DNA from: Labia minor
Lineage: Eukaryota; Arthropoda; Insecta; Dermaptera; Spongiphoridae
Direction of reading: 5' to 3'
DNA length: 64,000 nt
Assembly (NCBI GenBank): GCA_963082975.1
Contig: OY720345.1
Coordinates: 80,445,034 to 80,509,033, forward strand
Below, one piece after another: positions 1,655-55,575 of this stretch. A model generated the notes under the pieces. That model was not told where the DNA came from. It saw only the letters and a list, made by a program, of their open reading frames with translations, and did no database searches. The position numbers and the translations under genes were made by a program. Every line of letters starts with the position of its first letter. Position 1 is the stretch's first letter.

Positions 1655-2254
1655 AATAAGTTGACCTGTAGCCAGGCACACAGCCGACCGACGGTTTGAA
1701 ATAAATTAATTTCCAGCTACAGAAACAATTTCAAATAATTTTAACATATCTATTAATGCAATAAAAAACAGATATGGATATAACATAAATATTTTTAATT
1801 TTATTTGATTTATAATATATAAGTTGAGCAGGCTGTGACGTAATGAAGAGCTGGGTGACGTCATATAATTTTAAATTAAGAAAAAACTAATGAAGATGAT
1901 TTTCCCGAGGATAAAACCAATACAAAGTGCATGATTCGTGGAGATATGTAACAAAATCTCCTCATGTGAAATTTGATGTGAAAATAACCCTTCCCTTCCT
2001 ATCGACGATCGGTAATACTACCACTTCCAGTTTCCGGATATACACCAAAAGTTGATCAATTCATCATACTGATGCATTAAGTAATACCAAATTTTATCAA
2101 AATCCGTTGATCCGTTCAAGCTGTATACATCTATTCGGACGGACAAACATCATGCTAAAAGTACTTTTTTCTGTTAAGAAAATGCATGATTCGTGGAGAT
2201 ATGTAAAAATCTCCACATGTGAAATTTGGTATGAAAACAATACCTTCGGTCGGT
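1655..2254 (-). mobile_element. Family A copy 1 (Helentron-like non-autonomous element)
   Basis: Near full-length member of a ~600-bp dispersed repeat. Read on the - strand it begins after a T-run with ACCGACCGA and ends TCGGTCGG...CCTG-gcta-CAGG-TCAACTTATT, so it has a subterminal inverted repeat (ACCGACCG core) and a 4-bp-stem hairpin near the 3' end. Inside are a GTCC-type microsatellite remnant, the CGGATTTTGATaAAATTTGGTA-like box, an ACCGGAAGT-like box, two hairpins of the GGAGAT...ATCTCC type and a pair of CRE-like sites. It carries no coding sequence. Assignment to Helentron/DINE-1-like elements is inferred from architecture. Short open frames here are chance readings. Confidence 0.75.
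1836..1863. promoter_or_regulatory. Paired CRE-like sites in family A copy 1
   Basis: TGACGTAA at 1836 and TGACGTCA at 1856, start-to-start distance 20 bp. Same arrangement as in the other family A copies, with one site mutated by one base. bZIP/CREB-type proteins bind TGACGTCA; function here is untested. Confidence 0.5.
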
Positions 2255-2982: not shown

Positions 2983-3556
2983 TACTGATCGACGATAGTA
3001 AGGGAGGTATTGTTTTCATACCACCAAGATTTTTACATATCTCCACAAATCATGCATTTTCTTAACCTTTAGCATGTCTGTCCGTCCGTCCGTATAGATG
3101 TGAACAGCTTGAACGGTTCAACGGATTTTGATGAAATTTTGTATATTTGCTTAATGCATCAGTATGATGAATCAACTTTTGGTGCAAATCAGGAAACCGG
3201 AAGTGGTAGTAGGGAAGGGTTATTTTCACACCAAATTTCACATGAGGAGATTTTTTTACATATCTCCACGAATTATGCACTTTGTATTGATTTTATCCTC
3301 ATGAAAATTATCTTCATTAGTTTTTTCTTAAATTAAATTTATTGACGTCACCCAGCTCTTCATGACGTCACAGCCAGCTCAACTTATATAATATTATTAT
3401 AAATAAAATAAAATTAAAAATATTTATGTTATATCCATATCTGTTTTTTATTGCATTAATAGATACATTTAAATTATTTGAAATTGTTTCTGTAGCTGGA
3501 AATTAATTTATTTAAAACCGTCGGTCGGTTCTGCGCCTGACCACAGGTCAACTTAT
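2983..3556 (+). mobile_element. Family A copy 2, opposite orientation to copy 1
   Basis: Full-length-like copy lying 0.7 kb from copy 1 in reverse orientation. The order is: ATCGACGATAGTAAGGGAGG start; hairpin GGAGAT.../ATCTCC; GTCCGTCCGTCC microsatellite at 3079; GGATTTTGATGAAAT box; CCGGAAGTGGTAG box; second GGAGAT hairpin unit; CRE pair; then AAACCGTCGGTCGGTT and CCTG-acca-CAGG hairpin, ending TCAACTTATTTTT. The hairpin loop differs from copy 1 while the stem is kept. The start has lost one C of the ACCGACC motif. Confidence 0.8.
3343..3370. promoter_or_regulatory. Paired perfect CRE palindromes in family A copy 2
   Basis: TGACGTCA at 3343-3350 and again at 3363-3370, exactly 20 bp apart (two helical turns), separated by CCCAGCTCTTCA. 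Conserved in sequence and spacing with the other copies. Confidence 0.6.
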
Positions 3557-4943
3557 TTTTAATTTTTATAAACATAAATATACACATTTGGGATTGGAAT
3601 TATTAAAATAAAAATAATACTGGCTTGATTTTATATATAATTTTGAATAATGTTAAAATGATAATACATTACCTTGTGAAGCTATTCTTAATAATCACTA
3701 CCTTGTATAATCTTCTTATCATATTGACTTCTTTTAATAGGCCAATATATTCTTTTTTGAGATTCTATTCTCAATCCAAAAAAAAACATTTACAGGTCAG
3801 GTTTATTTATTAATTCATTTACTTATTTAGCATTTCTTATTCTGTATTCACAACTAATATTCCTTAATATTATATTGAAAAGAAATAAATTGTGTAGATT
3901 TATTAAATTTAATAATTTTATTTACTAATAATATTTTACATTAAAAACTTAAATATTATATAGTCTTTAATTTACTTTACATAAGTACCTTTTAATCTAG
4001 ATATGACTGGAGTGAGTTCAGAGAATTTTAATCGTTTCTCTCCTTATTGAGATTTATTTCGTGCTTTTTTGATTTTATATTTTGAATAAAAACATGAATA
4101 ATACAAATACCTTTATTAATTTTTTTCAATGCAATTTTAATTAGTAGTCTATATAAAAGTTATTAGAAATTTATTTTAATAAATTAAATTAAAATATGTG
4201 TGTGTGTGTTCATTTATAATTAAATATTTATTAAATTAAATACAAATTAGAAATTCTCTCCCATTATAATATAATTGTAAAGATATATGGCTTGTATGTC
4301 ATTTCTAGTTGTGGTTAAATTCGACTAGAGAATCATTTAGATATATATATAAAAAAAGAGAACATTTTCATTCTTGTCAGTTTTATAGTTTAATTTCCTG
4401 TCTAGTAATTCTTTTGGTAATTTCAGCTCTTTTTTTATCTTTATTAAAAATATACATCCTGTAGATCTTGAGCGAGCTAAATGAAAAAGGGAGAACTCTT
4501 TAGTTATATGATCATTGGAAAATTACTCTTCCAGATAGAAAACAACGAGTAGTTTTAAATAGAAAATAAAACAATCCATGTATGTATATACATTCTCATT
4601 TTTTCTTTATAAAAACGATAGATCAAAAAAAAAATCAATATACCATATTGTGGATATGATTAGCATTTTGTTTTCTAAAAAGTTTATTTTGATAAGAATA
4701 GACAATTAAAGAGACACTTTCTAGAAATTCAATGAATAAATTTCACTAGAAATGTCTTTAGGACGCAGGTTATTATTGGATTACAAGGAACGTTTCTAGT
4801 TCATTTTAACTTGATTTAATCGACTGAGACCATCTACACAACAAATATGACCCATTTCAATTAGTGATTTTGTTTGAATGTAAAAATTCAATTCTTCTAT
4901 TTTAATAGCAAATATAATTATGATCTCTAAGCATCATGAGAAA
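3557..4943. other. AT-rich intergenic stretch, no gene seen
   Basis: I see only AT-rich sequence, a short (TG)n near 4197 and short chance open frames. A 62-codon frame at 3625-3813 is hydrophobic because of base composition and has no recognisable domain. Confidence 0.55.
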
Positions 4944-5750: not shown

Positions 5751-6195
5751 AACAAGAAGAAGAGATTCCTTCTTCCCCCCCCCCTCATGTTCAAATATTC
5801 TTATTAAATTTTATTTATAAAAATTATATATATGATTTAATAGTTACGTTATATAATTATATAGATTCAAGATGTGCAGATTTTATTTATCCTTATTGGC
5901 TATTCTGAAAATTTTTTTTTTTTTAAATAAATTAGTCTACTTTTATTATCCACTAATAATGTTATTTTTTTAATTTTAAATTTAATCTATCAATTAAATC
6001 CAACTAAAATTAAAAATTTATTAATACCCCTAGTTATTATAAAATATTTTAGGAGAAAGTCGCTTTATTTCGACCAATTTTTGTTTAAAAACCTCGAAAT
6101 GCATAAACAATCATCTTTAAAAAAGTGTCTCTTTTTATTGATACACATTAACTATGTTGTATAACCTGTAAATCTAAAGATACAATGAAAAATAA
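5751..6195. other. AT-rich spacer, no gene seen
   Basis: Contains a C-run at about 5777 and AT-rich sequence; nothing recognisable. Confidence 0.5.
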
Positions 6196-6676
6196 GCTGG
6201 AGTGTCTCCACTCGACTATCTCGCAATTTGAATTGGATTAATTAACATATATTCTATTTAAATTAAATTTAATTAATTATAAATTAAAATTAATAAATAA
6301 TATTTATTAAATCAACGCATGTTTGGCTCTTTGTTGATGGCGCCACGTCACGTGTTGGCGCGTGATTTGCAGTGTTAAAAAATTAATTCCGGTACTTTTA
6401 GCGATTCAATCAAGCTGAAATTCTATATATAGCAGTTTTATACAATTTTTAATCATGTGAAAAACTATCAAACATTTATTTTTACAGTCACTTTAGAAGA
6501 AAAAAAATCAAAACTAAATTTCATGATTCTAGCTCAAACCGTTTTTGCGAATTCTTGTCTACATATACATTCACATACACACGGACAGACATTTTTCTCA
6601 ACCTTAGTGAAAATGTCTCAGGGACCTTCAAAACGTATAAAAACATTAAATGGAAAATTTTCTCTGGCGAGATAGT
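6196..6676 (-). mobile_element. Family B copy 1 (internal deletion)
   Basis: Member of a ~600-bp repeat present six times. On the - strand the 5' end follows a T-run and reads ACTATCTCGCcaGAGA; the 3' end reads GCGAGATAGTCGAGTGgaga then CACTCCAG, that is, a subterminal inverted repeat ACTATCTCGC followed by a 5-bp stem, 4-base loop hairpin. This copy lacks most of the GAAATTTGGTA region and part of the 5' region present in copies 2-4. It keeps CACGTCACGTG and the CTATATATAG palindrome. No protein is encoded. Confidence 0.75.
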
Positions 6677-13338: not shown

Positions 13339-13872
13339 TTTTACGATAGGAAGGGAAGGTATTGTTTTCACACCAAATTTCACATGTGGAGATTTTTGCA
13401 TATCTCCACGAATCATTTTGTTAACAGACACAAAGTATTTTTAGCATGATGTCTCTTCGTCCGTCCCTCTGTCCATTGTGTGTCCTTATAGACGTGTAAA
13501 GATAGAACTGCTCAACGGATTTTGATACAATTTGGTATATTTACTTAATGCATCACTAGCAGTGGCGTAGCGTGATCTATTATGTTGTGGGGGGGGGGCA
13601 CGGGGTGGTCCGGGGGTCTCCCCCAGAAAAAATTTTTACAAAATAAATTATTTATTTATTAATTAACACATTTAGACTATACTTATACGTAATTTAAAGA
13701 TGTTTTTTTTTTCTTTTGGGTTCTCAGTTACAAAACTAATCACTTTTAAATTTATTTTTTGCACAATGTTTGGGGGAGGGGGGCACGTGCCCCCCATGCC
13801 CCCCGGCCTGACGCCACTGATCACTAGCATGAATACATATATCCCGAAACCGGAATTGGCAGTTTACAAAGT
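13339..13872 (+). mobile_element. Family A copy 3, split by a hAT MITE and 3' truncated
   Basis: Starts ACGATAGGAAGGGAAGGT after a T-run, keeps the GTGGAGAT...ATCTCCAC hairpin (13386-13409), a degraded GTCC microsatellite, the CAACGGATTTTGAT box and GGTATATTTACTTAATGCAT. It is then interrupted at 13560 by a MITE and resumes with a degraded CCGAAACCGGAA box. The CRE pair and the 3' SIR/hairpin are missing. Confidence 0.7.
13560..13819. mobile_element. hAT MITE with perfect 8-bp target duplication
   Basis: The element begins CAGTGGCGTAGCG and ends ...TGACGCCACTG, giving an inverted repeat CAGTGGCGT. It is bounded by ATCACTAG on both sides (13552-13559 and 13820-13827). The 8-bp duplication and CAGTGGCG termini define a hAT-superfamily insertion. 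The 260-bp body has G-runs and C-runs near the ends (GGGGGG...CCCCCC pairing) and no transposase, so it was mobilised in trans. It sits inside family A copy 3 and is therefore younger. Confidence 0.9.
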
Positions 13873-13879
13873 ATTAATT

Positions 13880-15306
13880 TAATATTCATTGTCGGAAATT
13901 TGTTAGATAACGTAGATTTTTGTTTATATGTTGTAATGATTTACAATTTTAAATTGTTGTTTTGTCAATAAGATTTCTTTTAAAAATTTATAATTTAAAT
14001 TTTATTATACACTGATCCAAACTGCTTTAATTTTACATTTAGATATTAAATTATACTTATAATACTCTTATAGGATTAAAAAAATTTGTATATGGTAGAT
14101 AAATAAATTTCTGATATCTTTAAATAACTTGAAAAAAAAATTATCTGTACCAGTATATTCTATGATTTGTAATATTAAAGTAATAAACACACCATAATGG
14201 CAAAAACAACAACAAAACAAACAAAATTCACTGAAAGTCAATCGTTGTTTTGGTTTCTCTCATCCCAAATGATACGATTCGGAAATACGCTGACATGATT
14301 GATTCTCGATATACAATCAATACTAACTATTGGAGAAATAATAGCTAAATCATCTTGTAACTTGATGACGTTGTATTCTCATCATGATCAGTAAACTTTT
14401 GAAAAGTTGAATTTAAGAAAAACATACATATTTCATATTTTTATAAATAGAAAACAATTTTAAAATTTCAATACAATCTTTAAACAATATTAATTCACAA
14501 TAATTTGGCAAATACTTTCCATCATAAGTGTGTAGTTATTTTTTTTTTCATTTATTCAAAATGAATCAAATAATTAAATTTGATTTGAGTATATATTTAA
14601 ATAATAATAACAATAATTATAATATATTTATAAATTATAATAAGTTAGCAATATTCTGATATTACTTAAATTTTTACATAAAACGAATTAATTATTATGT
14701 ATATTATCAATTGGATTGAGTACATATTTGCCCTTTTTTGTAAAATGTTGTTTTTAATTAAAATATTATGTCATGACTGTGGTGTATGCAAACGAGGCTT
14801 TAAAAGTAAAAAAAAAATATTAAACCCCTTGACATCTAAAATGTCTTTGGAAATTGCTGGTAATAAAATATAAAACGTATTTTTAATTATGTTATAGACC
14901 TACATTGTAATTTCTTTAAACGTAATTCTTTTTATGTTTCAACAGTTAACAAAATATACATATAATAATACTCATAATATATATTATAATAAATACCAAC
15001 AATATTGATTTTTTTTTGCAAATTATGCAATAAAATTGCAATTCAACCAATTTAATATTTCAATTTCAATAGATATAGTAAATACATCCTTTAATTTATT
15101 TTTACATGTAGGTATAATTTTTCTAACATAATTTTTACAGTTATTCTTGATACAAAAAAAAACATAAATAAATCAATCAATTATAAAAATTATAATATGA
15201 GAAATGATATTATAAAATTATATATATATATATAATATATGATAAAATATAAAAAAAAAATTTTGTGAATAGTTTAATAAGTCACATTGACATTTAATCG
15301 TAAAAA
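13880..15306. other. AT-rich intergenic stretch, no gene seen
   Basis: AT-rich sequence with short (TA)n near 15221. No gene, RNA or element end recognised. Confidence 0.55.
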
Positions 15307-15307
15307 T

Positions 15308-15874
15308 CTGGAGTGTCTCCACTCGACTATCTCGCAAATTTGAATTGAATTAATTAACACACATATATTTAAATTAAATTATAAATTAAAATTAATAAAT
15401 AATATTTATTAAACCAGCGCGTGTTAAGCTCTTTGTTGATGGCACCACGTCACCTTGCACTGTTTAAAAATTAATTCCGGTACTTTCAGCGATTCAATCA
15501 AGCTGAAATTCTATATATAGCAGTTTTATACAATTTTTAATCATTTGAAAAACTATCAAACATATATTTTTATTTTTACGTTCAGTTTAGTGGAAAAAAG
15601 TGAAAACGTTTTAGGTAATGACCCTCTTCCGAAAAAGCTACATTTTTCAAAAGTTGATAGAAAACTACCAATTTTGAATAATGCCCGTGTACCAAATTTC
15701 ATGCTTCTAGCTCAAACCATTTTTGCTTGTCTACATATACATTCACATACACACAGACAGACATTTTTCTCAACCTTAGTGAAAATGTCTCAGGGACCTT
15801 CAAAACGTATAAAAATATCAAAATCTCGACATCGAAAACTTTCGTGATCGCAATACTATCTCTGGCGAGATAGT
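15308..15874 (-). mobile_element. Family B copy 2
   Basis: Near full-length. The + strand runs from the 3' hairpin GAGTG-tctc-CACTC and ACTATCTCGC (15327-15336) to the 5' end ACTATCTC-tggc-GAGATAGT at 15855-15874, followed by AAAAA. It contains the CTATATATAG palindrome, the CCGGAAG-type box in mutated form, the TACCAAATTTCATG box, a short CACA microsatellite and the CGATCACGAAAG box. The CACGTG segment is deleted (CCACGTCACCTTGC). Confidence 0.8.
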
Positions 15875-18240: not shown

Positions 18241-18413
18241 CGCTAAATTACCTTAAATAATATTATTTACTTGTATTATACAATTCACTAAAGAGAAGTT
18301 CATTTCTAAATTATCAACATAAGTTATAATAGGATATTCTGTTGTTCTATTCAAATTTTTCAAGATATTAGTTTAGAATTTGTATATAATATTCAAATAC
18401 AATTGGAAAAAAT

Positions 18414-19012
18414 CTGGAGGATCTCCACTCGACTATCTCGCAAATTTGAATTGGATTAAATAACATATATTAATTTAAATTAAATTAAATTAATTAAATT
18501 ATAAATTAAAATTAATAAATAATATTTATTAAACCAGCTCATGTTTGGCTCTTTGATGATGGCACCACGTCACGTGTTGGCGCGTGATTTGCAGTGTTAA
18601 AAAATTAATTCAGGTACTTTCAGCGATTCAATCAAGCTGAAATTCTATATATAGCAGTTTTATACAATTATTAATCATGTGAAAAATTATCAAACATATA
18701 TCTTTATTTTTACGGTCACTTTAAAAGAAAAAAAATCAAAACGTTTTAGGTAATGATCCTCTTACGGTTGAGCTATATTTCTCAAAAGTTGATAGAAAAC
18801 TACCAATTTTGAATAATGCCCGTGTACCAAATTTCATCATTCTAGCTCAAACTGTTTTTATGTATACTTGTCTACATATATATACACATACACACAGACA
18901 TATTTTTCTCAACCTTAGTGAAAATGTCTCAGGGACCTTCAAAACGTATAAAAACATCAAAATCTCAACATCGAAAATTTCGTGATCGCAATACTATCTC
19001 TGGCGAGATAGT
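18414..19012 (-). mobile_element. Family B copy 3
   Basis: Full length. The + strand begins CTGGAGGATCTCCACTCG (the hairpin has one mismatch, CTCGA side kept), then ACTATCTCGC, CACGTCACGTGTTGGCGC at 18567, CTATATATAG at 18645, and the TACCAAATTTCATC box. It ends ACTATCTC-tggc-GAGATAGT followed by AAAAA at 19012. Confidence 0.8.
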
Positions 19013-20127: not shown

Positions 20128-20939
20128 ACCGACCGACGATAGTAAGGGAGGTATTGTTTTCACACCAAATATCACATGTGGAGATTTTTACATATCTCCA
20201 CGAATCATATATATATATATATATATATTGTTAGTACTAAATGAGGTTAAAAACTAATTTGTTTTAAAATAAAAAAATATTAAGAAAATTATTATATGAT
20301 TTTATATCATAATAAATTGGAATAAATTGCCTAATTTTCGAATATTCTATATAAGTATTCATTTTAATTGTGTTAAAATTTAATTAAAATTAAAATCAAT
20401 GATAAATCATTCAAATTAATAAATTAAATCCCTACTAATACCCTACGTCCGTCCATCCGTATAGAGTGTACAGATTGAACGGCTCAACGGATTTTGATGT
20501 AATTTGGTAAATTTTCTTAATGCATCAATATGATGAATTGATCAACTTTTGGTGCTAATCTGGAAACCGGAAATGGTAGTATTAGCGATCGACGATAGGA
20601 ACGGAAGGGTTATTTTCACACCAAATTTCACATGAGGAGATTTTTTACATATCATCACGAATCATGCACTTTGTATTGGTTTTATCCTCGAGAAAAATCA
20701 TCTTTATTAGTTTTTTCTTAATTTAAGATTATATGACGTCATCCAGCCATTCATGACGTCACAGCCTGGTCTTACATATATATTATAAATAAAATAAAAT
20801 TAAAAATATTTATGTTATATTCATATCTGTTTTTTATTACATTAATAGATATATTAAAATTATTTGAAATTGTTTCTGTAGCTGGAAATTAATTTACTTC
20901 AAACCGTCGGTCGTTTCGTTGGCCACAGGTCAACTTATT
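20128..20939 (+). mobile_element. Family A copy 4
   Basis: Begins TTTTT-ACCGACCGACGATAG at 20128 with TAAGGGAGGTATTG (20143-20156) and a perfect GTGGAGAT...ATCTCCAC hairpin (20178-20201). From about 20208 to 20445 the usual sequence is replaced or interrupted by an (AT)n run and unrelated AT-rich DNA. It then resumes with GTCCGTCCATCCGT, the GAACGGCTCAACGG box, the CCGGAAA box, the second hairpin unit, the CRE pair, and ends AAACCGTCGGTCG...CCACAGGTCAACTTATT. The 3' hairpin stem is damaged here. Confidence 0.8.
20734..20761. promoter_or_regulatory. Paired perfect CRE palindromes in family A copy 4
   Basis: TGACGTCA at 20734-20741 and 20754-20761, again exactly 20 bp apart. Confidence 0.6.
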
Positions 20940-22493: not shown

Positions 22494-23082
22494 ACTATCT
22501 CATAAGAGATAGTATTGCGATCACGAAAATTTTCGATGGTGAGATTTTGATGTTTTTATACGTTTTAAAGGTTCCTGAATCATTTTCACTAAGGTTGAGA
22601 AAAATGTCTGTGTGTGTGTGTGTATGTATGTAGGCAAGATTACGCAAAAACGGTTTGAGCTAGAATGATGAAATTTGGTACATGGACATTATTCAAAATT
22701 CATAGTTTTCTATCAACTTTTGAGAAATGTAGCTCAACCGGAAGAAGGTCATTACTTACAACGTTTTGATTTTTTTTCCTCTAAAGTGACCGTAAAAATA
22801 AATATATATGTTTGATAATTTTTCACATGATTAATAATTGTATAAAACTGCTATATATAGAATTTCAGTTTGATTGGCTCGCTGAAATTACCAGAATTAA
22901 TTTTTTAACACTGCAAATCTCACGCGCCAACACGACGTGGTGCCATCAACAAAAAGCCAAACATGCGCTGGTTTAATAAATATTATTTATAATATATAAT
23001 TAATTAAATTTAATTTAAATATAATATATTATGTTATTTAATCCAATTCAAATTGCGAGATAGTCGAATGGAGACACTCCAG
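22494..23082 (+). mobile_element. Family B copy 4, the only + strand copy
   Basis: Full length. The 5' end TTTTT-ACTATCTC-ataa-GAGATAGTATTG (22494-22517) is followed by CGATCACGAAAATTTTCGA, GAGATTTTGATG, ATGTCTGTGTGTGTG microsatellite (22603), the ATGAAATTTGGTACATGG box (22665), the CAACCGGAAGAAGG box (22735), CTATATATAG (22849), a CACGTG site mutated to CACGAC, and the 3' end GCGAGATAGTCGAATGgaga then CACTCCAG. The 5' hairpin loop (ATAA) differs from TGGC in other copies while the stem is intact. Confidence 0.85.
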
Positions 23083-23191
23083 CTTATTTATATAGGAAGT
23101 AAAGGATAGGCAACTGGAAAGGATTTTGAATGAAAGCCCCTTCTAGGTAGGCAACCAATGAATACTATGGAAAAACTATTCCTCGATTTTT

Positions 23192-23225
23192 ACCGACCGA
23201 CGATAGTAAGGGAGGTATTGTTTTT
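23192..23225 (+). mobile_element. Family A 5'-end stub 1
   Basis: Only the first ~34 bases of family A: T-run, ACCGACCGACGATAG, TAAGGGAGGTATTGTTTT. Unrelated AT-rich DNA follows. It stops at the same internal point as the stub at 51715. Confidence 0.75.
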
Positions 23226-28080: not shown

Positions 28081-28649
28081 ACCCTGATCATTCAAAAAAT
28101 CAAATTTATACAAATTAATAACAAAATTTCATACAAAAATGAATAAAAGTAAAAAGATACAACAGAATTTTCGCCAGATTTTCAATAAAATGGATTTTTA
28201 GTGAAATATAAATGAAAATTATAATTAATTTTTATTTGGTATCATGTTTACACTTGAAATAAACATTTTCTGATAACAATATATAAAACGCATATCAAAA
28301 TACTCGTTATTCAATGTAGATTCACTTTCACTAGCATTATATAATTTTATGATGCTTCCTTAATTAAATATTAATTATTGAATTTTGACAGTTGCAATGT
28401 GATTTCGGCTGCCATGTTGAATGACGTCGAATCTTTTGATCCATTATATTAAATGATTATTCTTTGCATATCTCTTCTCTCAATACAAGATTATTTTTGA
28501 TTCTTGTATTTCTTGTATTATAACTATTTCCATGATCATTTTTCTCTGTTTAATCAATATTTAATGAATAAAGTCTTTGCCATGTATTGCTTATGGGCTG
28601 AATTTTCGTAGCCTTCAAGTGGATTTCTTTCCTATGTTTTTACTAGTTA

Positions 28650-31727: not shown

Positions 31728-32203
31728 ACTTTCCCGCATACTTCGTATAAGGGAAGTATTGGAATCGTCAAAAATTTCGACTTCGAGATTTCGATAGATC
31801 TTGACGTTTTAGACCTCCCTGAGTCGGAAAATACCATTTTTCGAATTATGTCTGTGTGTGTGTATGTAAGTGTATGTATGTATGTAGGTATGTATGTATG
31901 TAATGTCTGTAAGCAAATTTACTCAAAAACTAATCAAGCTAGGACTTCGAAATTTGGTACACCGATATTATTCACAGTTTGTAGATTTCTATCAAAATTT
32001 CGTCAAAATCGGTTAACCGGAAGTGGTACTTTACTTACACTGGTTGCGTTTACCTTTCAAGTAAAGTACCAGTTTGCTTCGAGATATTTGCTTCATATTT
32101 TGTATATAGATTTAAAAATATGAAAAAAATTGAGATACCAAATTTCATCATGATCTGACTACCGGAAGTGACATTTTACCTATACAAGTAGCGTTTCTTT
32201 TTT

Positions 32204-32720
32204 ACCGACCGACGATAGTAAGGGAGGTATTGTTTTCACACCAAATTTCACCTATGGATATTTTTAGGCACATATCTCCACGAATCATGCATTTTCTTAA
32301 CAGAAAAAAGTATTTTTAGCATGATGTCTGTCCGTCCGTCCGTCCGTCCGTATAGATGTATACAGCCTGAACGGCTCAACGGATTTTGATGAAATTTTTT
32401 ATATTTACTTAATACATCAGTAGAATGAATTGATCAACTTTTAGTGCAAATCCGGAAACCGGAAGTGCTAGAATTGCCGATCGAAGAGAGGAAGTGAAGG
32501 GTTATTTTCATATCAAATTTCACGTGAGGACATATCTCCACGTGTTATGCACTTTGTATTGGTTTTATCCTCGAGAAAAATCATCTTCATTAGTTTTTTC
32601 TTAATTTAAAATTATATGACGTCACCCAGCACTTCATGACGTCACAGCCAGCCCTTATATATTATAAATAAAATAAAATTAAAAATATTTATATTATATC
32701 CATATCTGTTTTTTTTACAT
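32204..32720 (+). mobile_element. Family A copy 6 nested in family C, 3' truncated
   Basis: Starts TTTTTT-ACCGACCGACGATAG and runs through the hairpin unit, GTCCGTCCGTCCGTCCGT (32330-32351), the GATTTTGATGAAAT box, CCGGAAGTGCTAG, the CRE pair and the CCATATCTGTTTTTTTTAC region. It stops before the 3' SIR and hairpin. Family C sequence resumes with CAGTTAACCGGAAGTAGC. Confidence 0.8.
32617..32644. promoter_or_regulatory. Paired perfect CRE palindromes in family A copy 6
   Basis: TGACGTCA at 32617-32624 and 32637-32644, spacing 20 bp. Confidence 0.6.
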
Positions 32721-33120
32721 TTAAAATATCAGTTAACCGGAAGTAGCACTTTATTACATTCTAAATATTCATTCACAACTCTTTATACCTATTTATATGC
32801 GGGAAAGTCTAGGGGAGGACACTCCCGTTTATTTTTATTTAAACAGATAAGTTTTCAATATAAATAAATCAAAAACTAAATGATCACAATAAAAATCAAA
32901 AAATTATATAATTTAGATTATCTAATTAGTTTTTCCCAATGTGGACGATAACGTCTGGAATATCTACAGGGAGATGCTAAACGTATTGGGAGGTTCGATG
33001 ACATCTATATATTTCTAATATTTTAAAATTTAAATTTAAAATCCATCTTACTAAATAAATAATTACTAAATAAATAATGTACTATTGAAAAAAAAATAAA
33101 CAATTAAATTCCTAAAAACT

Positions 33121-35399: not shown

Positions 35400-36515
35400 T
35401 ATTATTACATAATACACGTAGTATAGACATTCTATATACTGCCTGTATAGTATTTGTATCACAATTAAAGGAGCATATACACATGTAAATTTATTGATAA
35501 ATAAACACAAATAATAAATAAATAAATATTCTAATACTATTAGAGTAGGTTTTAAGATAACATCCGGAGCTTTAATCTAAAATAAATAAATACATTAAAG
35601 TTATTGTTTTTGGGAAATCTTTTTTTTTTTAAAAAAAAAGAGAAACTTGAAAAGAAAATTTCTAGTAATAAATAAAATTGAAAGAGTGAAATTTATTTTT
35701 GTTTTCTCTTTTTAATCGTCAATTATTTTAATTATGTCTTTTGATATCTTACGATTATAGAAAAATGCAAAAACAAGAAATTTAGCGCCCCGTGATAAAA
35801 GGCATTCTTTTATCCACCCTGAGGCCTGCCTGCAGTCATTCTATATATTTTTCTAATAATAAATTTCCTTTCATAATAGAATTAAAAATCATCCTAGTAT
35901 AAAATATTTTTTATTCTTTAAACAACATGAAAATCACCTGGATGGGAAATAAAAATTTGATATTTCACATTCCTTGGTTTTGTTTTTGAACTGAGTTAAT
36001 GGAGTGGAGAATTTCCATTTCGTTGGCATTAAAAAAATATTAGTATATTCACTTTTTACTTAATTAATTTTATGCAAATGAAATTAAGATTCTCTTTGGT
36101 TTCTAATTTAAAAAAGAAGACGCTATGCCAATGCGACTTTTTTTTTATTTTAATTTAAACACAAATGTTTACAGAAGAATTTCAAATCGTGAAAAATGTT
36201 TGAAATCAGGCTGAGAGACGAAATTCTTTTTCTATATCCATTAAATTAATAAATGGAAATAACAAATGCACAAACATTATTTGTATAATGTGTGTGTGTT
36301 GTTCATGATTTATTAGATAGAATTGACTTTTATCTCTGAATTTATTTATTTATTTATTTTTTAATAAATAATTAATACAAACATTATTTTTGTGTAGGTT
36401 GAATAATAATTTTAAGTTGTTGTTGTTGAATATACATTAAATGAAATATTTTTAATAATTTAAAAGTCTATAAATTATAATATACCTTTTTATTTCGTTT
36501 TTTTGATAAAAAAAA
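35400..36515. other. AT-rich stretch, no gene seen
   Basis: Contains (TTA)n adjoining the SINE tail and T-rich runs. Nothing else recognised. Confidence 0.5.
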
Positions 36516-36517
36516 AA

Positions 36518-36970
36518 CCGGAGTGTCTCCACTCGAATATCTCGCAAATTTGAATTGGATTAAATAACAAAATATATTATATTTAAATTAAATTTAATTA
36601 ATTATATATTATAAATAATAAATATTAAACGAGCGCATGTTTTGCTCTTTGTTGATGGCACCACGTCACGTGTTGGCGCGTGAGATTTGCAATGTTAAAA
36701 AATTAATTCCGGTACTTTCAGCGATTCAATCAAGCTGAAATTCTATATATAGCAGTTTTATACAATTATTAATCATGTGAAAAATTATCAAACATATATC
36801 TTTATTTTTACGGTCACTTTAGAAGAAAAATATCAAAATGTTGTAAGTAATGACCCTCTTCCGGTTGAGCTACATTTCTCAAAAGTTGATAGAAAACTAC
36901 AAATTTTGAATCATGCCCATGTACCAAATTTCATCATTCTAGCTCAAATCGTTTTTGCGTAATCTTGGTT

Positions 36971-37014
<44 letters not shown>

Positions 37015-37049
37015 CACACAGATATTTTTCTCAACCTTGGTGAAAATGA
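36518..37049 (-). mobile_element. Family B copy 5, 5' truncated, with (CA)n expansion
   Basis: The 3' hairpin GAGTG-tctc-CACTC is intact; the adjacent SIR reads AATATCTCGC (one change). CACGTCACGTGTTGGCGC (36661), CTATATATAG (36742), and the CCGGTTGAGCTACATTTC and TACCAAATTTCATC boxes follow. The microsatellite position has become (CA)n at 36975-37012. The element stops at GGTGAAAATG, so the 5' SIR/hairpin is missing. Confidence 0.8.
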
Positions 37050-37774
37050 TCCAGGATCATCTAGCAAAACAAGGAATATTGCCGTACTTTTCTTAATTTG
37101 TTAATGAAAATAATTTCACTTGTACTTATTCCAATGACTGATTGTGTTTAACTAACAATTTGGGTTTCTACATATTTTATTTCATTAATTTCCTCTTGCC
37201 TATAACTTACAGTAGACTTTTATTCTCTAGTTACTTAGTTAATTGAATCTTTATCTGTAATATCGATCGAAAAGTCAAAAAAACACTTTCCTAAAACGGT
37301 TCTATCTCCTTTATATTTATATTGTCTTACCGCCAGGTCTTTGTTCTCCAACAAATTTTTTTATAAAAAAATAACCTTAAACAGGTATACATAGGTTTAT
37401 TTATCATTACTGCAATTAGACTTTGTTGAATTTTTCCACTTGATTTGTAGTCCAGTGAAAGGGATGTATTTATATTATTAATATGTATGACTTTGATCAA
37501 AGATGACTACTTTTTCAAAAAATAAAAGAAAGAATTCTTTCTAATATTCAACTTACCTTCAACAACATTATATCAATTTAATTATTTCCAAATATATATA
37601 TTTTTTTTTTCAAATAATTAATCTATTATTTTGATATAATTGAATCATTCACATAGTAATTTGTCTATTTCTTGTTCTTTTCTTCATTGCTCAAATACCT
37701 ATTGTTTCTGAATAAAACAAAAATTTAAATGCTTTTCGATAATTTTGTTTTTTTCACTGTAGTCTCCTTTGATC
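37050..37774. other. AT-rich stretch, no gene seen
   Basis: No recognisable feature beyond a short (AT)n/T-run near 37590. Confidence 0.5.
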
Positions 37775-42740: not shown

Positions 42741-42844
42741 ACACACACCTAATATATCTAACCAAGGAAATTAATAGAAAAAATTTATAAATTTCATTTC
42801 TCTATTTCATTTATTTTATTGAAATTTCAATTTAAAAAAAAAAT

Positions 42845-43284
42845 CTGGAGTGTCTCCACTCGACTATCTCGCAAATTTGAATTGGATTAAATAACATATA
42901 TTAATTTAAATTAAATTAATTAAATTATAAATTAAAATTAATAAATAATATTTATTAGACTAGCGCATGTTTGGCTCTTTGTTGATGGCACCACGTCACG
43001 TGTTGGCGCGTGAAATTTGCAGTGTTAAAAAATTAATTTTGGTACTTTCAGCTATTCAATCAAGCTGAAATTCTATATATAGCAGTTTTATACAATTATT
43101 AATCATGTAAAAAATTATCAAACATATATCTTTATTTTTACCGTCACTTTAGAAGAAAAAAAATCAAAATGTTGTAAGTAATAACCCTCTTCCGATTGAG
43201 TTACATTTCTCAAAAGTTGATAGAAAACTATACATTTTGAATAATGCCCATGTACCAAATTTCATCATTCTAGCTCAAACCGTT
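42845..43284 (-). mobile_element. Family B copy 6, 5' half missing
   Basis: The 3' end is intact: CTGGAGTGTCTCCACTCG hairpin, ACTATCTCGC, CACGTCACGTGTTGGCGC (42991), CTATATATAG (43073), and the TACCAAATTTCATC box. It stops at AGCTCAAACCGTTT, just before the microsatellite position, so about a quarter of the element and its 5' SIR are absent. Confidence 0.8.
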
Positions 43285-43289
43285 TATAT

Positions 43290-44517
43290 ATAACTAATAA
43301 AAATAAATTTCATTAAGACGAATTGCAAATCTAGAAATCATTTTATATATTAAAATATCTTTTATATAATTTGTTTCGTATAATTTTTTTTATTGCGAGT
43401 ATGTTTCTGATTAGTATGTTGAATCTATAGCTCACTTTAGATTAAAGAGAGAGAGATGAAATTTTTTTTTTTTATGGTACATTTAAGTATTATTTTTAGT
43501 TAATAATCCTCCCCACTTGGCTCCCTTTGCTACTTTATGGTTAGATCACATATACCTTTCCAAGGAGATTAAATATATAAATATTATTAAAAAAAACCTT
43601 AATCTCACAATTGAATTTCATTAAATATTAAGGAAATTAGAGTAAAAAAGTTTGTCCTTTTTCTTTCGTTTTTCTAGTAGAACTATATTTAATCATGTGA
43701 TTGTAAATGACAATTCTATTTTAAAATTCATTGTATTTTGTTCTACTTTTATAAAATATATGAATTGATAATTTATCATTTATCCATTGAGGAGAAAAAT
43801 TTGATTTGCATTAATGGTCTAGAAACTTAGAGAGAGGGAGAAAGTTTTAATAATTCGATGAAAATGGTATATGAAAAGTTTGAAATCTAAATTAATGGAG
43901 TCACTATTTCACTATTTCAATATGATTTTTTCTCTACTGAGATAAAAAAACAAGTAAAAATTTCTCTCTCTGGTTTATTAATTGTCTTGCTTCTCTATAG
44001 TTCCTAAAAGCTGGTGCGGGCGCTTCATCCCTTATATTGTCTGTTATTTTTTTTTAATGATCGATATAAATAATTTTTTTCTAGTTTTTTTATTGGTAAA
44101 AGAAGTAATTTTCATCATTTTTCTTATAATTTTATTTTCAATTAAATGATTAATTCATAGTTGAATATCAACTTTTAAAAGATAATTATTTTTGTGTTCT
44201 TTTGTAAGGTTTGGAATGTTAAATTTGTAAATTATAATATAAAATTCAGTAAATGTTTATTTTTGTTTTACTAATTTTAAAATAAATATATTTTGTAAAA
44301 ATTTGATGATTTCTTTTCCTAAATTAAATTGAAAAGGGTTAGATCACCAAGATCACCTATCATTAATTAGATATAAACTATCCGGTAATGAAATATAAAA
44401 TTTCCACTCTTTATGGAGTATCTGACCTTTTAAGAGTCTTAGATAAGTGGTATATATTCAATTTTACTTTTGTTAGGTTTTACTTGTCATTTCGAGAAAA
44501 AAATTAAATATAGAATA
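43290..44517. other. AT-rich stretch, no gene seen
   Basis: (GA)n at about 43445-43455, T-runs, nothing recognisable. Confidence 0.5.
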
Positions 44518-51714: not shown

Positions 51715-51747
51715 ACCGACCGACGATAGGAAGGGAAGGTATTGTTA
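51715..51747 (+). mobile_element. Family A 5'-end stub 2
   Basis: T-run, ACCGACCGACGATAGGAAG, GGAAGGTATTGTT, then unrelated AT-rich DNA. Ends at the same internal point as the stub at 23192. Confidence 0.75.
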
Positions 51748-51964: not shown

Positions 51965-52594
51965 TAATAAGTTGACCTGTGGCCAGGTCCGAACCGACCG
52001 ACGGTTTGAAATAAATTAATTTCCAGCTACAGAAACAATTTCAAATAATTTTCATATATCTATTAATGTAATAAAAAACAGATATGGATACATAAATAAT
52101 AAATATAAACATTTTTAATTTTATTTTATTTATAATATATATGCAAGACCAGGCTGTGACGTCATGAATGGCTGGATGACGTCATATAATTTTAAATCTA
52201 GAAAAAACTAATAAATATGATTTTTCTCGAGGATAAAACCAATACAAAGTGCATGATTCGTGGTGATATATAAAAAAATCTCCTTTGGTGTGAAAATAAC
52301 CCTTTCTTTCCTATCGTCGATTGCTAATACTACCACTTTCGGTTTCCGGAATTGCACCAAAAGTTGATCAATTCATCCCACTGATGCATTAAGTAAATAT
52401 ACCAAATTTCATCAAAATCGGTTGAGCCGTTCAGGCTGTACACATCTATAAGGACGGACGGACGCACAGACGGACAGTCATCATGCTAAAAATACTTTTT
52501 TCTGTTTAGAAAATGCATGATTCGTGGAGATATGTAAAAATCTCCACATGTGAAATTTGGTGTGAAAACAATACCTCCCTTACTATCCGTCGGT
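51965..52594 (-). mobile_element. Family A copy 8, complete, with an identifiable empty site
   Basis: On the - strand it runs from ACCGACGGATAGTAAGGGAG (52594 side; one CGAC unit fewer) through hairpin GTGGAGAT...ATCTCCAC, a GTCC/GTCT microsatellite, the CAACCGATTTTGATGAAATT box, CCGGAAACCGAAAGTGG, a second unit, the CRE pair, AAACCGTCGGTCGGTT and CCTG-gcca-CAGG, to TCAACTTATT. The junctions are A3 on the left and A7 on the right where the empty site has A9, so no target duplication beyond about one base is detectable. Confidence 0.85.
52157..52184. promoter_or_regulatory. Paired perfect CRE palindromes in family A copy 8
   Basis: TGACGTCA at 52157-52164 and 52177-52184, spacing 20 bp. Confidence 0.6.
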
Positions 52595-53214: not shown

Positions 53215-54202
53215 CCAGGTTACGTCAATCCTCCAACTAGCAAAACCCCGTTTATTCACGAGTGAGACATGTCTTAAGTGTCTCTGAGAGGACCCACCTC
53301 CTCAACGCTTTTTACTATTAGAAAATTTGGAACTCCTATTTATTGAACTCTTTGGAGAATTAGCAGAAACACTTCTATTCAATTGGATTCAATTTATACA
53401 AATTAATAACAAAATTTCATAAAAAATGAATAAAAATAAAAAGATACAACAGAATTTTCGCCAGATTTTCAATAAAATGGATTTTTAGTGAAATATAAAT
53501 GAAAATTATAATTAATTTTTATTTGGTATCATGTTTACACTTGAAATAAACATTTTCTGATAACAATATATAAAACGCATATCAAAATACTCGTTATTCA
53601 ATGTAGATTCACTTTCACTAGCATTATATAATTTTATGATGCTTCCTTAATTAAATATTAATTATTGAATTTTGACAGTTGCAATGTGATTTCGGCTGCC
53701 ATGTTGAATGACGTCGAATCTTTTGATCCATTATATTAAATGATTATTCTTTGCATATCTCTTCTCTCAATATAAGATTATTTTTGATTCTTGTATTTCT
53801 TGTATTATAACTATTTCCATGATCATTTTTCTCTGTTTAATCAATATTTAATGAATAAAGTCTTTGCCATGTATTGCTTATGGGCTGAATTTTCGTAGCC
53901 TTCAAGTGGATTTCTTTCCTATGTTTTTACTAGTTAATAGAACAGTCGCATCGGATTGGACTCTGAGTAGTAATTTTTTTGTCTGAGTTCAAATCTTTCA
54001 ATTTGTTTATTTTTTATAATTTTATTCTTTAGATTTTTAATAATATAATTATAAATGTTAATATAATATTATTTAAATTAATTATTAAATAACTTAAAAA
54101 TTACTTGAAAAGGAAGGAAATAATTTTATTGTTTTTATATATGAAGCAATAAGAAAAAATTGAATAAGTTTCATGAAATGTAAAATTAATTTTTAATAAA
54201 TT

Positions 54203-55508: not shown

Positions 55509-55574
<66 letters not shown>
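55509..55574 (+). repeat. (GTCT)n tetranucleotide array
   Basis: About 16 perfect CTGT/GTCT units without interruption, then TCCGG. Located ~115 bases inside the Helitron 5' end. GTCY-type microsatellites are a known internal feature of Helitron/Helentron-related elements. Confidence 0.95.

Positions 55575-55575
<1 letters not shown>

Follow-up and report, generated by a model that had tools for sequence, protein, structure and literature searches.

Repeat families in the window

The window, which is the whole stretch of 64,000 nucleotides analysed here, comes from the 604 Mb genome of Labia minor and has a GC content of 26.9% (25.3% in the sampled pieces). It holds copies of three repeat families, A, B and C, which are abundant non-autonomous elements. 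Family A has one copy with both ends at 20128..20939 (+), which by eye carries an AT-rich insertion, further copies at 2984..3557 (+), 1655..2254 (−, with a short deletion in the head) and 51966..52594 (−), and an interrupted copy with a broken 5' end at approximately 13343..13900 (+). There are also two A stubs, one of 31 bp at 23192..23222 (+) and one of 32 bp with another head variant at 51715..51746 (+), both ending at GTATTGTT. Family B has a copy at 22494..23088 (+) and copies on the other strand at 18408..19012, 15302..15874 and 6191..6676, as well as two 5'-truncated copies, likewise on the minus strand and with approximate upper ends, at 36512..37050 and 42839..43300. Family C is present at 31728..32833 (+). 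Other features of the window include an open frame at 416-760 which by eye resembles part of a mariner transposase, and two identical 300-base copies, 25 kb apart, at 28135-28434 and 53422-53721, both of which adjoin other repeats common to the two places. A perfect GTCT microsatellite of 16.8 copies lies at 55509-55575, outside the A, B and C copies listed.

Exact 5' heads were counted throughout the genome, and the numbers are 18,620 for A, a total which includes stubs and heads nested in C, 7,356 for B and 2,645 for C. The control patterns, read backwards, gave 0 for each family.

The composite C element

The C element in the window is 1106 bp long. It is preceded by TTTTT and starts with the 5' subterminal inverted repeat ACTTTCCCGCATA (31728..31740), followed by the box TAAGGGAAGTATTG (31748..31761), which consists of the 3' arm of a 5' partial palindrome plus GTATTG, and by a TATG microsatellite (31847..31911). 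Near the other end lie the 3' subterminal inverted repeat TATGCGGGAAAGT (32796..32808), the exact inverse of the 5' word, and the hairpin GGGAG-GACA-CTCCC (32813..32826). All these features are where the earlier note had located them. That note gave the element as 31728..32827; start and layout stand, and the right end is really at about 32833. The longest stop-to-stop frame over C is 153 aa.

The right end is common to 20 of 20 C copies compared and the left end to 19, the exception (L022) being rearranged there; these 20 are the best matches to the window copy, a choice which favours both the uniformity and the presence of the insert described next. Between 32204 and approximately 32722 (+; right end by eye) the C element contains an A element without A's last ~95 bp, and the A head is found at the same place in the window copy and in all 20 copies compared. 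The GTCC microsatellite near 32330 belongs to this nested A and not to C. Because another C copy, of 627 bp (in L041), has no A inside, we infer that the element in the window is a composite: an A element jumped into a C element and lost its 3' end, and the composite was then amplified. The Fusarium Helitrons FoHeli1/2, with several 5' termini per element, are a precedent for such multiple heads (PMC5148889). A second, degenerate head is present inside A itself, 264-280 bases in where the element is uninterrupted.

A shared layout

The earlier note postulated that the three families have distinct termini built on one common blueprint. The blueprint was scanned for in 264 kb of sequence, made up of the window and twenty 10-kb pieces taken at round coordinates from contigs C1, C2 and C4, with the rule that TTTTAC plus a 10-mer is followed by the exact inverse of the 10-mer 150-3000 bases downstream. 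The scan gave 19 pairs, of which 12 have a short hairpin with a 4-base loop next to them (B 6, A 3, C 3). The words of these 12 pairs are ACTATCTCGC (6), ACCGACCGAC (3) and ACTTTCCCGC (3), with no fourth word. Reversed words gave 0 pairs in the same 264 kb, and ten dinucleotide shuffles gave 1 pair, without a hairpin. A second scan used 9-base words, allowed any bases to follow TTTT and asked for stems of at least 5; it produced 16 matches, all with the same three words. With 12 matches of word plus hairpin against 0 in the controls, the shared blueprint is real and exceeds chance, and the words, boxes and hairpins claimed for A and B are present in the window. The distinctness of the termini applies to A, whose word differs; those of B and C are forms of a single word.

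The layout comprises subterminal inverted repeats of 10-15 bp, a feature of HINE and DINE-1-like elements, a hairpin downstream of the 3' repeat, and a GTCY-type microsatellite in the 5' part, which is GTCC in A and GTCTGTGTG in B. In C a short GTCTGTGTG is followed by a microsatellite that is mainly TATG. In copies with both ends the hairpin loop is GACA in C (12/12), GAGA in B (11/11) and GCCA in 4 of 6 A copies. Compared with shuffles the 5' partial palindrome is strong in B (z −7.28), moderate in C (z −2.36) and indistinguishable from them in A (z 0.42), and the B 3' region folds only weakly better than shuffles (z −1.46).

Ends and insertion sites

Upstream of the 23 C heads listed, T is found at positions −1, −2, −4 and −5 in all of them and at −3 in 22. 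Most of the C and A copies examined have CTTATT as their last common bases; the right end of B is variable, with CAGCTTATT, CAGATTTTT and other forms. Canonical Helitrons have 5' TC and 3' CTRR ends and an A/T target; the ends here are T-run/AC and CTTATT.

One C copy (L026) sits in a B element, and its flanks, when joined, match 26 places across the junction. Of these matches 11 are gap-free within 12 bases of the junction, and in the alignments inspected most of the other gaps lie ~10-12 bases to the right of it. A second empty site, at L021, is weak: its single match has a gap of 2 bases immediately to the left of the T-run. Taken with an A stub inserted in a B element (L068, see below) and the T-runs, these sites point to insertion in T-rich DNA without visible target duplication. 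It should be noted that the data, the target being a T-run, fit either an element that ends in TT or a duplication of TT.

This bears on the possibility that A, B and C are MITEs, moved by cut-and-paste, with short inverted repeats and a TT duplication. DINE-1 was once read in this way (PMC2374699), and the T-runs may hide a TT duplication with which the empty sites found here are compatible. However, only the 5' repeat is terminal; its 3' counterpart is set back ~24-28 bases from the end, with the hairpin outside it, and the layout agrees with that of rolling-circle elements point by point. We consider a MITE origin very improbable. The earlier note had named real target duplications and terminal repeats as observations that would speak against a Helentron-like element; the sites examined show no visible duplication, and the 3' repeat is subterminal.

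In a few places elements follow each other closely. A B 3' end is immediately followed by an A head (L047, ~6011-6048), a B-like 3' end by a C head (L009, ~485-501), and an A stub lies 12 bases before a C head (L041, minus strand, 2860-2903). The later arrival seems to use the T-rich right border of its neighbour as its target.

Kinship of the families

B and C are homologous over their whole length, with a local score of 249 against a maximum of 64 in 200 shuffles. For A the whole-length scores are 69 with B (shuffle maximum 65) and 60 with C (58). The three families can be aligned over their first ~70 bases around an invariant GTATTG; blocks downstream of it are also invariant in the three heads, and so is CTTATT in the three typed ends. 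Two of the 10 positions distinguish the B word from the C word, and the substitutions are mirrored at both ends; since each word is matched by its own 3' inverse, the change is paired. The A box is almost that of C (13/14), yet the A word is different, and it is again matched at the A 3' end.

The earlier note read this as a layout that was kept while the terminal words were swapped. We classified 74 heads by their 5' word and the first 3' word within 1.3 kb, and found A-C 23 times, C-C 12, B-B 11, C-A 9, A-A 6 and no 3' end within that distance 13 times. The 23 A-C cases come from A heads that sit inside C or from a stub immediately preceding C, and the 9 C-A cases are false matches on the GTCC microsatellite. 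With these nested, adjacent and false cases set aside, the 74 heads include no intact element that has the A word at one end and the B or C word at the other. A true exchange of ends by recombination between unrelated families could explain why A outside its head is only weakly similar to B and C, and nested composites do exist; against it stand the homology of B and C throughout, ends included, and the lack of intact mixed-end elements among the 74 heads, and we find such an exchange improbable. Judged from the sequences, the families are better read as the result of descent with paired change (co-divergence) than of swapping.

Known relatives and interpretation

The closest descriptions concern elements in other animals and in fungi. 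DINE-1 (INE-1) of Drosophila shares a 13-bp subterminal inverted repeat, a GTCY microsatellite, a 3' hairpin and insertion at TT. It also has a partial inverted repeat adjoining the subterminal one, as B and C do, and lacks significant frames, and D. willistoni has three types of subterminal repeat in one genome, like A, B and C here (PMC2374699, Table 1). The words are different, and the 3' stems of DINE-1 are 7-11 bp long against 4-6 bp in the present families. HINE-Mo of the mite Metaseiulus has the subterminal repeat, the 3' palindrome, the T-rich target left unchanged and, as here, several families per genome; it differs in that an autonomous Helentron is known for two of its subfamilies (PMC4067079), whereas none was found at the four Rep loci discussed below. 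FoHeli1/2, of the Helitron2 type, share an asymmetric inverted repeat and, with B and C, hairpins at both ends, but are autonomous and fungal, have other terminal words and insert after TNAT (PMC5148889).

The ends, the 3' hairpins, the microsatellite and the empty site agree with the proposal in the earlier note of Helentron-like, non-autonomous elements similar to DINE-1; the 5' palindrome of A lends it no support. From the fixed ends, the T-run target, the matched subterminal repeats, the hairpin, the copy number and the B-C homology we conclude, with a probability of about 0.88, that A, B and C are three lineages of the HINE/DINE-1 type (Helitron2 group), derived from a common ancestor and moved as non-autonomous rolling-circle elements. 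The layout is already known, and A, B and C themselves are ordinary new families.

For the movement of such elements we propose that a Rep-helicase made elsewhere nicks between the T-run and the leading AC. One strand would be peeled off, the process would stop at the hairpin before CTTATT, and the strand would be joined into another T-run. In experiments with Helraiser the 5' end was essential and the 3' end was not, and the 3' hairpin was the terminator (PMC4778049). The 5' word is probably recognized jointly with its inverse in the 5' palindrome and the inverse ahead of the 3' hairpin, by pairing or through a shared binding site. A change fixed in one word would then drag the others along, giving different words in the same layout.

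Search for an autonomous partner

The earlier note also suggested a search for an autonomous Helentron with matching ends. The genome has 104 matches to Helitron_like_N, several of them in frames of 1,345-2,181 aa, and four Rep loci among these were inspected, three of which are covered at the ends only or mainly on one side. A Helentron-type Rep was found, and none of the four loci has a Rep element with A, B or C ends and their layout.

The Helentron-type Rep is a frame of 1785 aa (L049), covered for 3.4 kb on its 3' side and ~270 bp on its 5' side. It encodes Rep and PIF1 domains and has the motif EFQNRGSPHIH, in which GSPH is the Helentron-type signature (PMC4067079). No endonuclease is found among its 10 Pfam hits, so that of the autonomous Helentron set (Rep, PIF1 helicase and AP endonuclease) L049, the locus to which the set was applied, carries the first two. 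Going by this predicted protein, a Helentron-type enzyme exists in the genome, and it is a candidate for the mover of A, B and C.

The second locus (L050, C1:82177501-82185500) is a canonical Helitron with an intact frame of 1652 aa and the signature GLPH. Seven matches share its score, and six of these have frames of 1651-1652 aa; this family therefore looks recently active. The third locus (ends in L051 and L052) has a frame of 2181 aa with inverted repeats of its own, and the C-terminal part of the frame (L052, minus strand, 1-830) resembles by eye a cysteine protease of the Ulp1 type. The fourth has a frame of 1754 aa, with its ends in L071 and L072.

Among the matches listed for the four loci, there is no A word within 2 mismatches. 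A few C-like matches with at most 3 mismatches (in L049, L050 and L071) and a single B-like one with at most 2 (in L072) are not accompanied by the other parts of the layout and look fortuitous. By eye, the minus strand of L071 also contains a core-like sequence, GAAACGGCTGGACCGATTCTAATGAAATTTT, which points to a further family of this type whose ends are different. On contig C5 (G000, C5:46739897-46792979) Rep matches with equal scores are spaced by 9,817 and ~5,688 bases, a pattern that resembles an element with a Rep repeated in tandem.

Short stubs of family A

Of all the observations, the 31-bp stubs, which are specific to one family, were the least expected. The two stubs in the window and one in L041 all end after GTATTGTT, and they account for 3 of the 14 T-run-preceded A heads outside C in the window and the sample (14 heads from 15 entries, one entry being a second head). 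Between base 15 and the box a permanent break is seen in 0 of these 14. Of the 18,620 exact A heads in the whole genome, 15,490 also have the following 8 bases of the full element, and 14,819 have the 8 beyond those as well. Approximately 3,130 heads therefore are not followed by TTCACACC; the first 8 bases past the box cost 16.8% of the matches, and the second 8 cost 4.3%.

About half of the 16.8% is ordinary change, judged by 18 sites examined. These are the heads without the next 8 bases among the first 100 listed; 9 are full heads with small changes and 9 continue into unrelated DNA. All nine of the latter pass from GTATTGTT into different flanks and share at most two further Ts with A, and it should be noted that the search pattern itself requires GTATTGTT, so that by construction they break within the following 8 bases. 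Nine in 100 corresponds to some 1,700 stubs in the genome, which is a rough figure since the 100 heads are neighbours on one contig.

An empty site is found for the stub L068, which lies in a B element. When its 31 bases are removed the flanks match 19 B places, 12 of them gap-free within 12 bases; because the flanks rejoin cleanly in B, this stub is an insertion. For the two window stubs and the one in L041 the flank tests gave no empty sites in the window and the examined sequences.

The stubs could instead be full A elements from which the inside has been deleted. Loss of everything between the box and the right border would leave the same product, and an empty site is at hand for one stub only. 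Such a deletion must, however, strike the element border every time, while 9 of 9 stubs leave GTATTGTT into different flanks and L068 without its 31 bases is matched by 19 B places. We hold deletion to be unlikely, if considerably less so than the alternatives discussed above.

Early termination is the most likely source of the stubs. Our analysis favours it because the A box is followed by TT as at the border, and because Helraiser, a canonical Helitron with TC/CTAG ends, makes truncated insertions whose new 3' ends, for example CTTG, lie beside T (PMC4778049). After the box TT is found in A, as at the real right border, and CG or GA in B and C. Counted by pattern, stub-like heads continuing with TT number 3 of 7,356 in B and 0 of 2,645 in C. 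A strong 5' hairpin was considered as the cause and rejected: the B hairpin is the strongest and yet B has next to no stubs. At the step over the 8 bases after the box, A heads inside the C composite lose 58 of 984 (counted by pattern) and the remaining A heads 3,072 of 17,636 (by subtraction). This would fit a requirement that the head lie at the very beginning of the element for a stub to be formed; the composite is young, and part of this contrast may be due to age.

We suggest that the GTATTG box together with TT mimics the right border of the element, and that the enzyme would sometimes cut there just after the start and leave a 31-bp stub. The first 31 bases of A would then be a complete transposition unit whose 5' end acts both as start and as stop, an idea to which we give somewhat less than an even chance. 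The Fusarium Helitrons, for which copies limited to the first 31 or 65 bp are described, are a precedent (PMC5148889). Apart from that paper no literature on stubs or premature termination was recognized by title and the start of the abstract, and the available part of the DINE-1 study mentions no stubs (PMC2374699).

Implications

Three types of ends on one layout, in one genome and in thousands of copies, amount to natural paired changes. From these the contacts among the 5' word, the 5' palindrome, the 3' word and the hairpin can be inferred. The 31-bp stubs offer a route, by sequence alone, to the minimal start-stop signal of Helentron-type elements, and the stubs of A may show how these elements start and stop copying.
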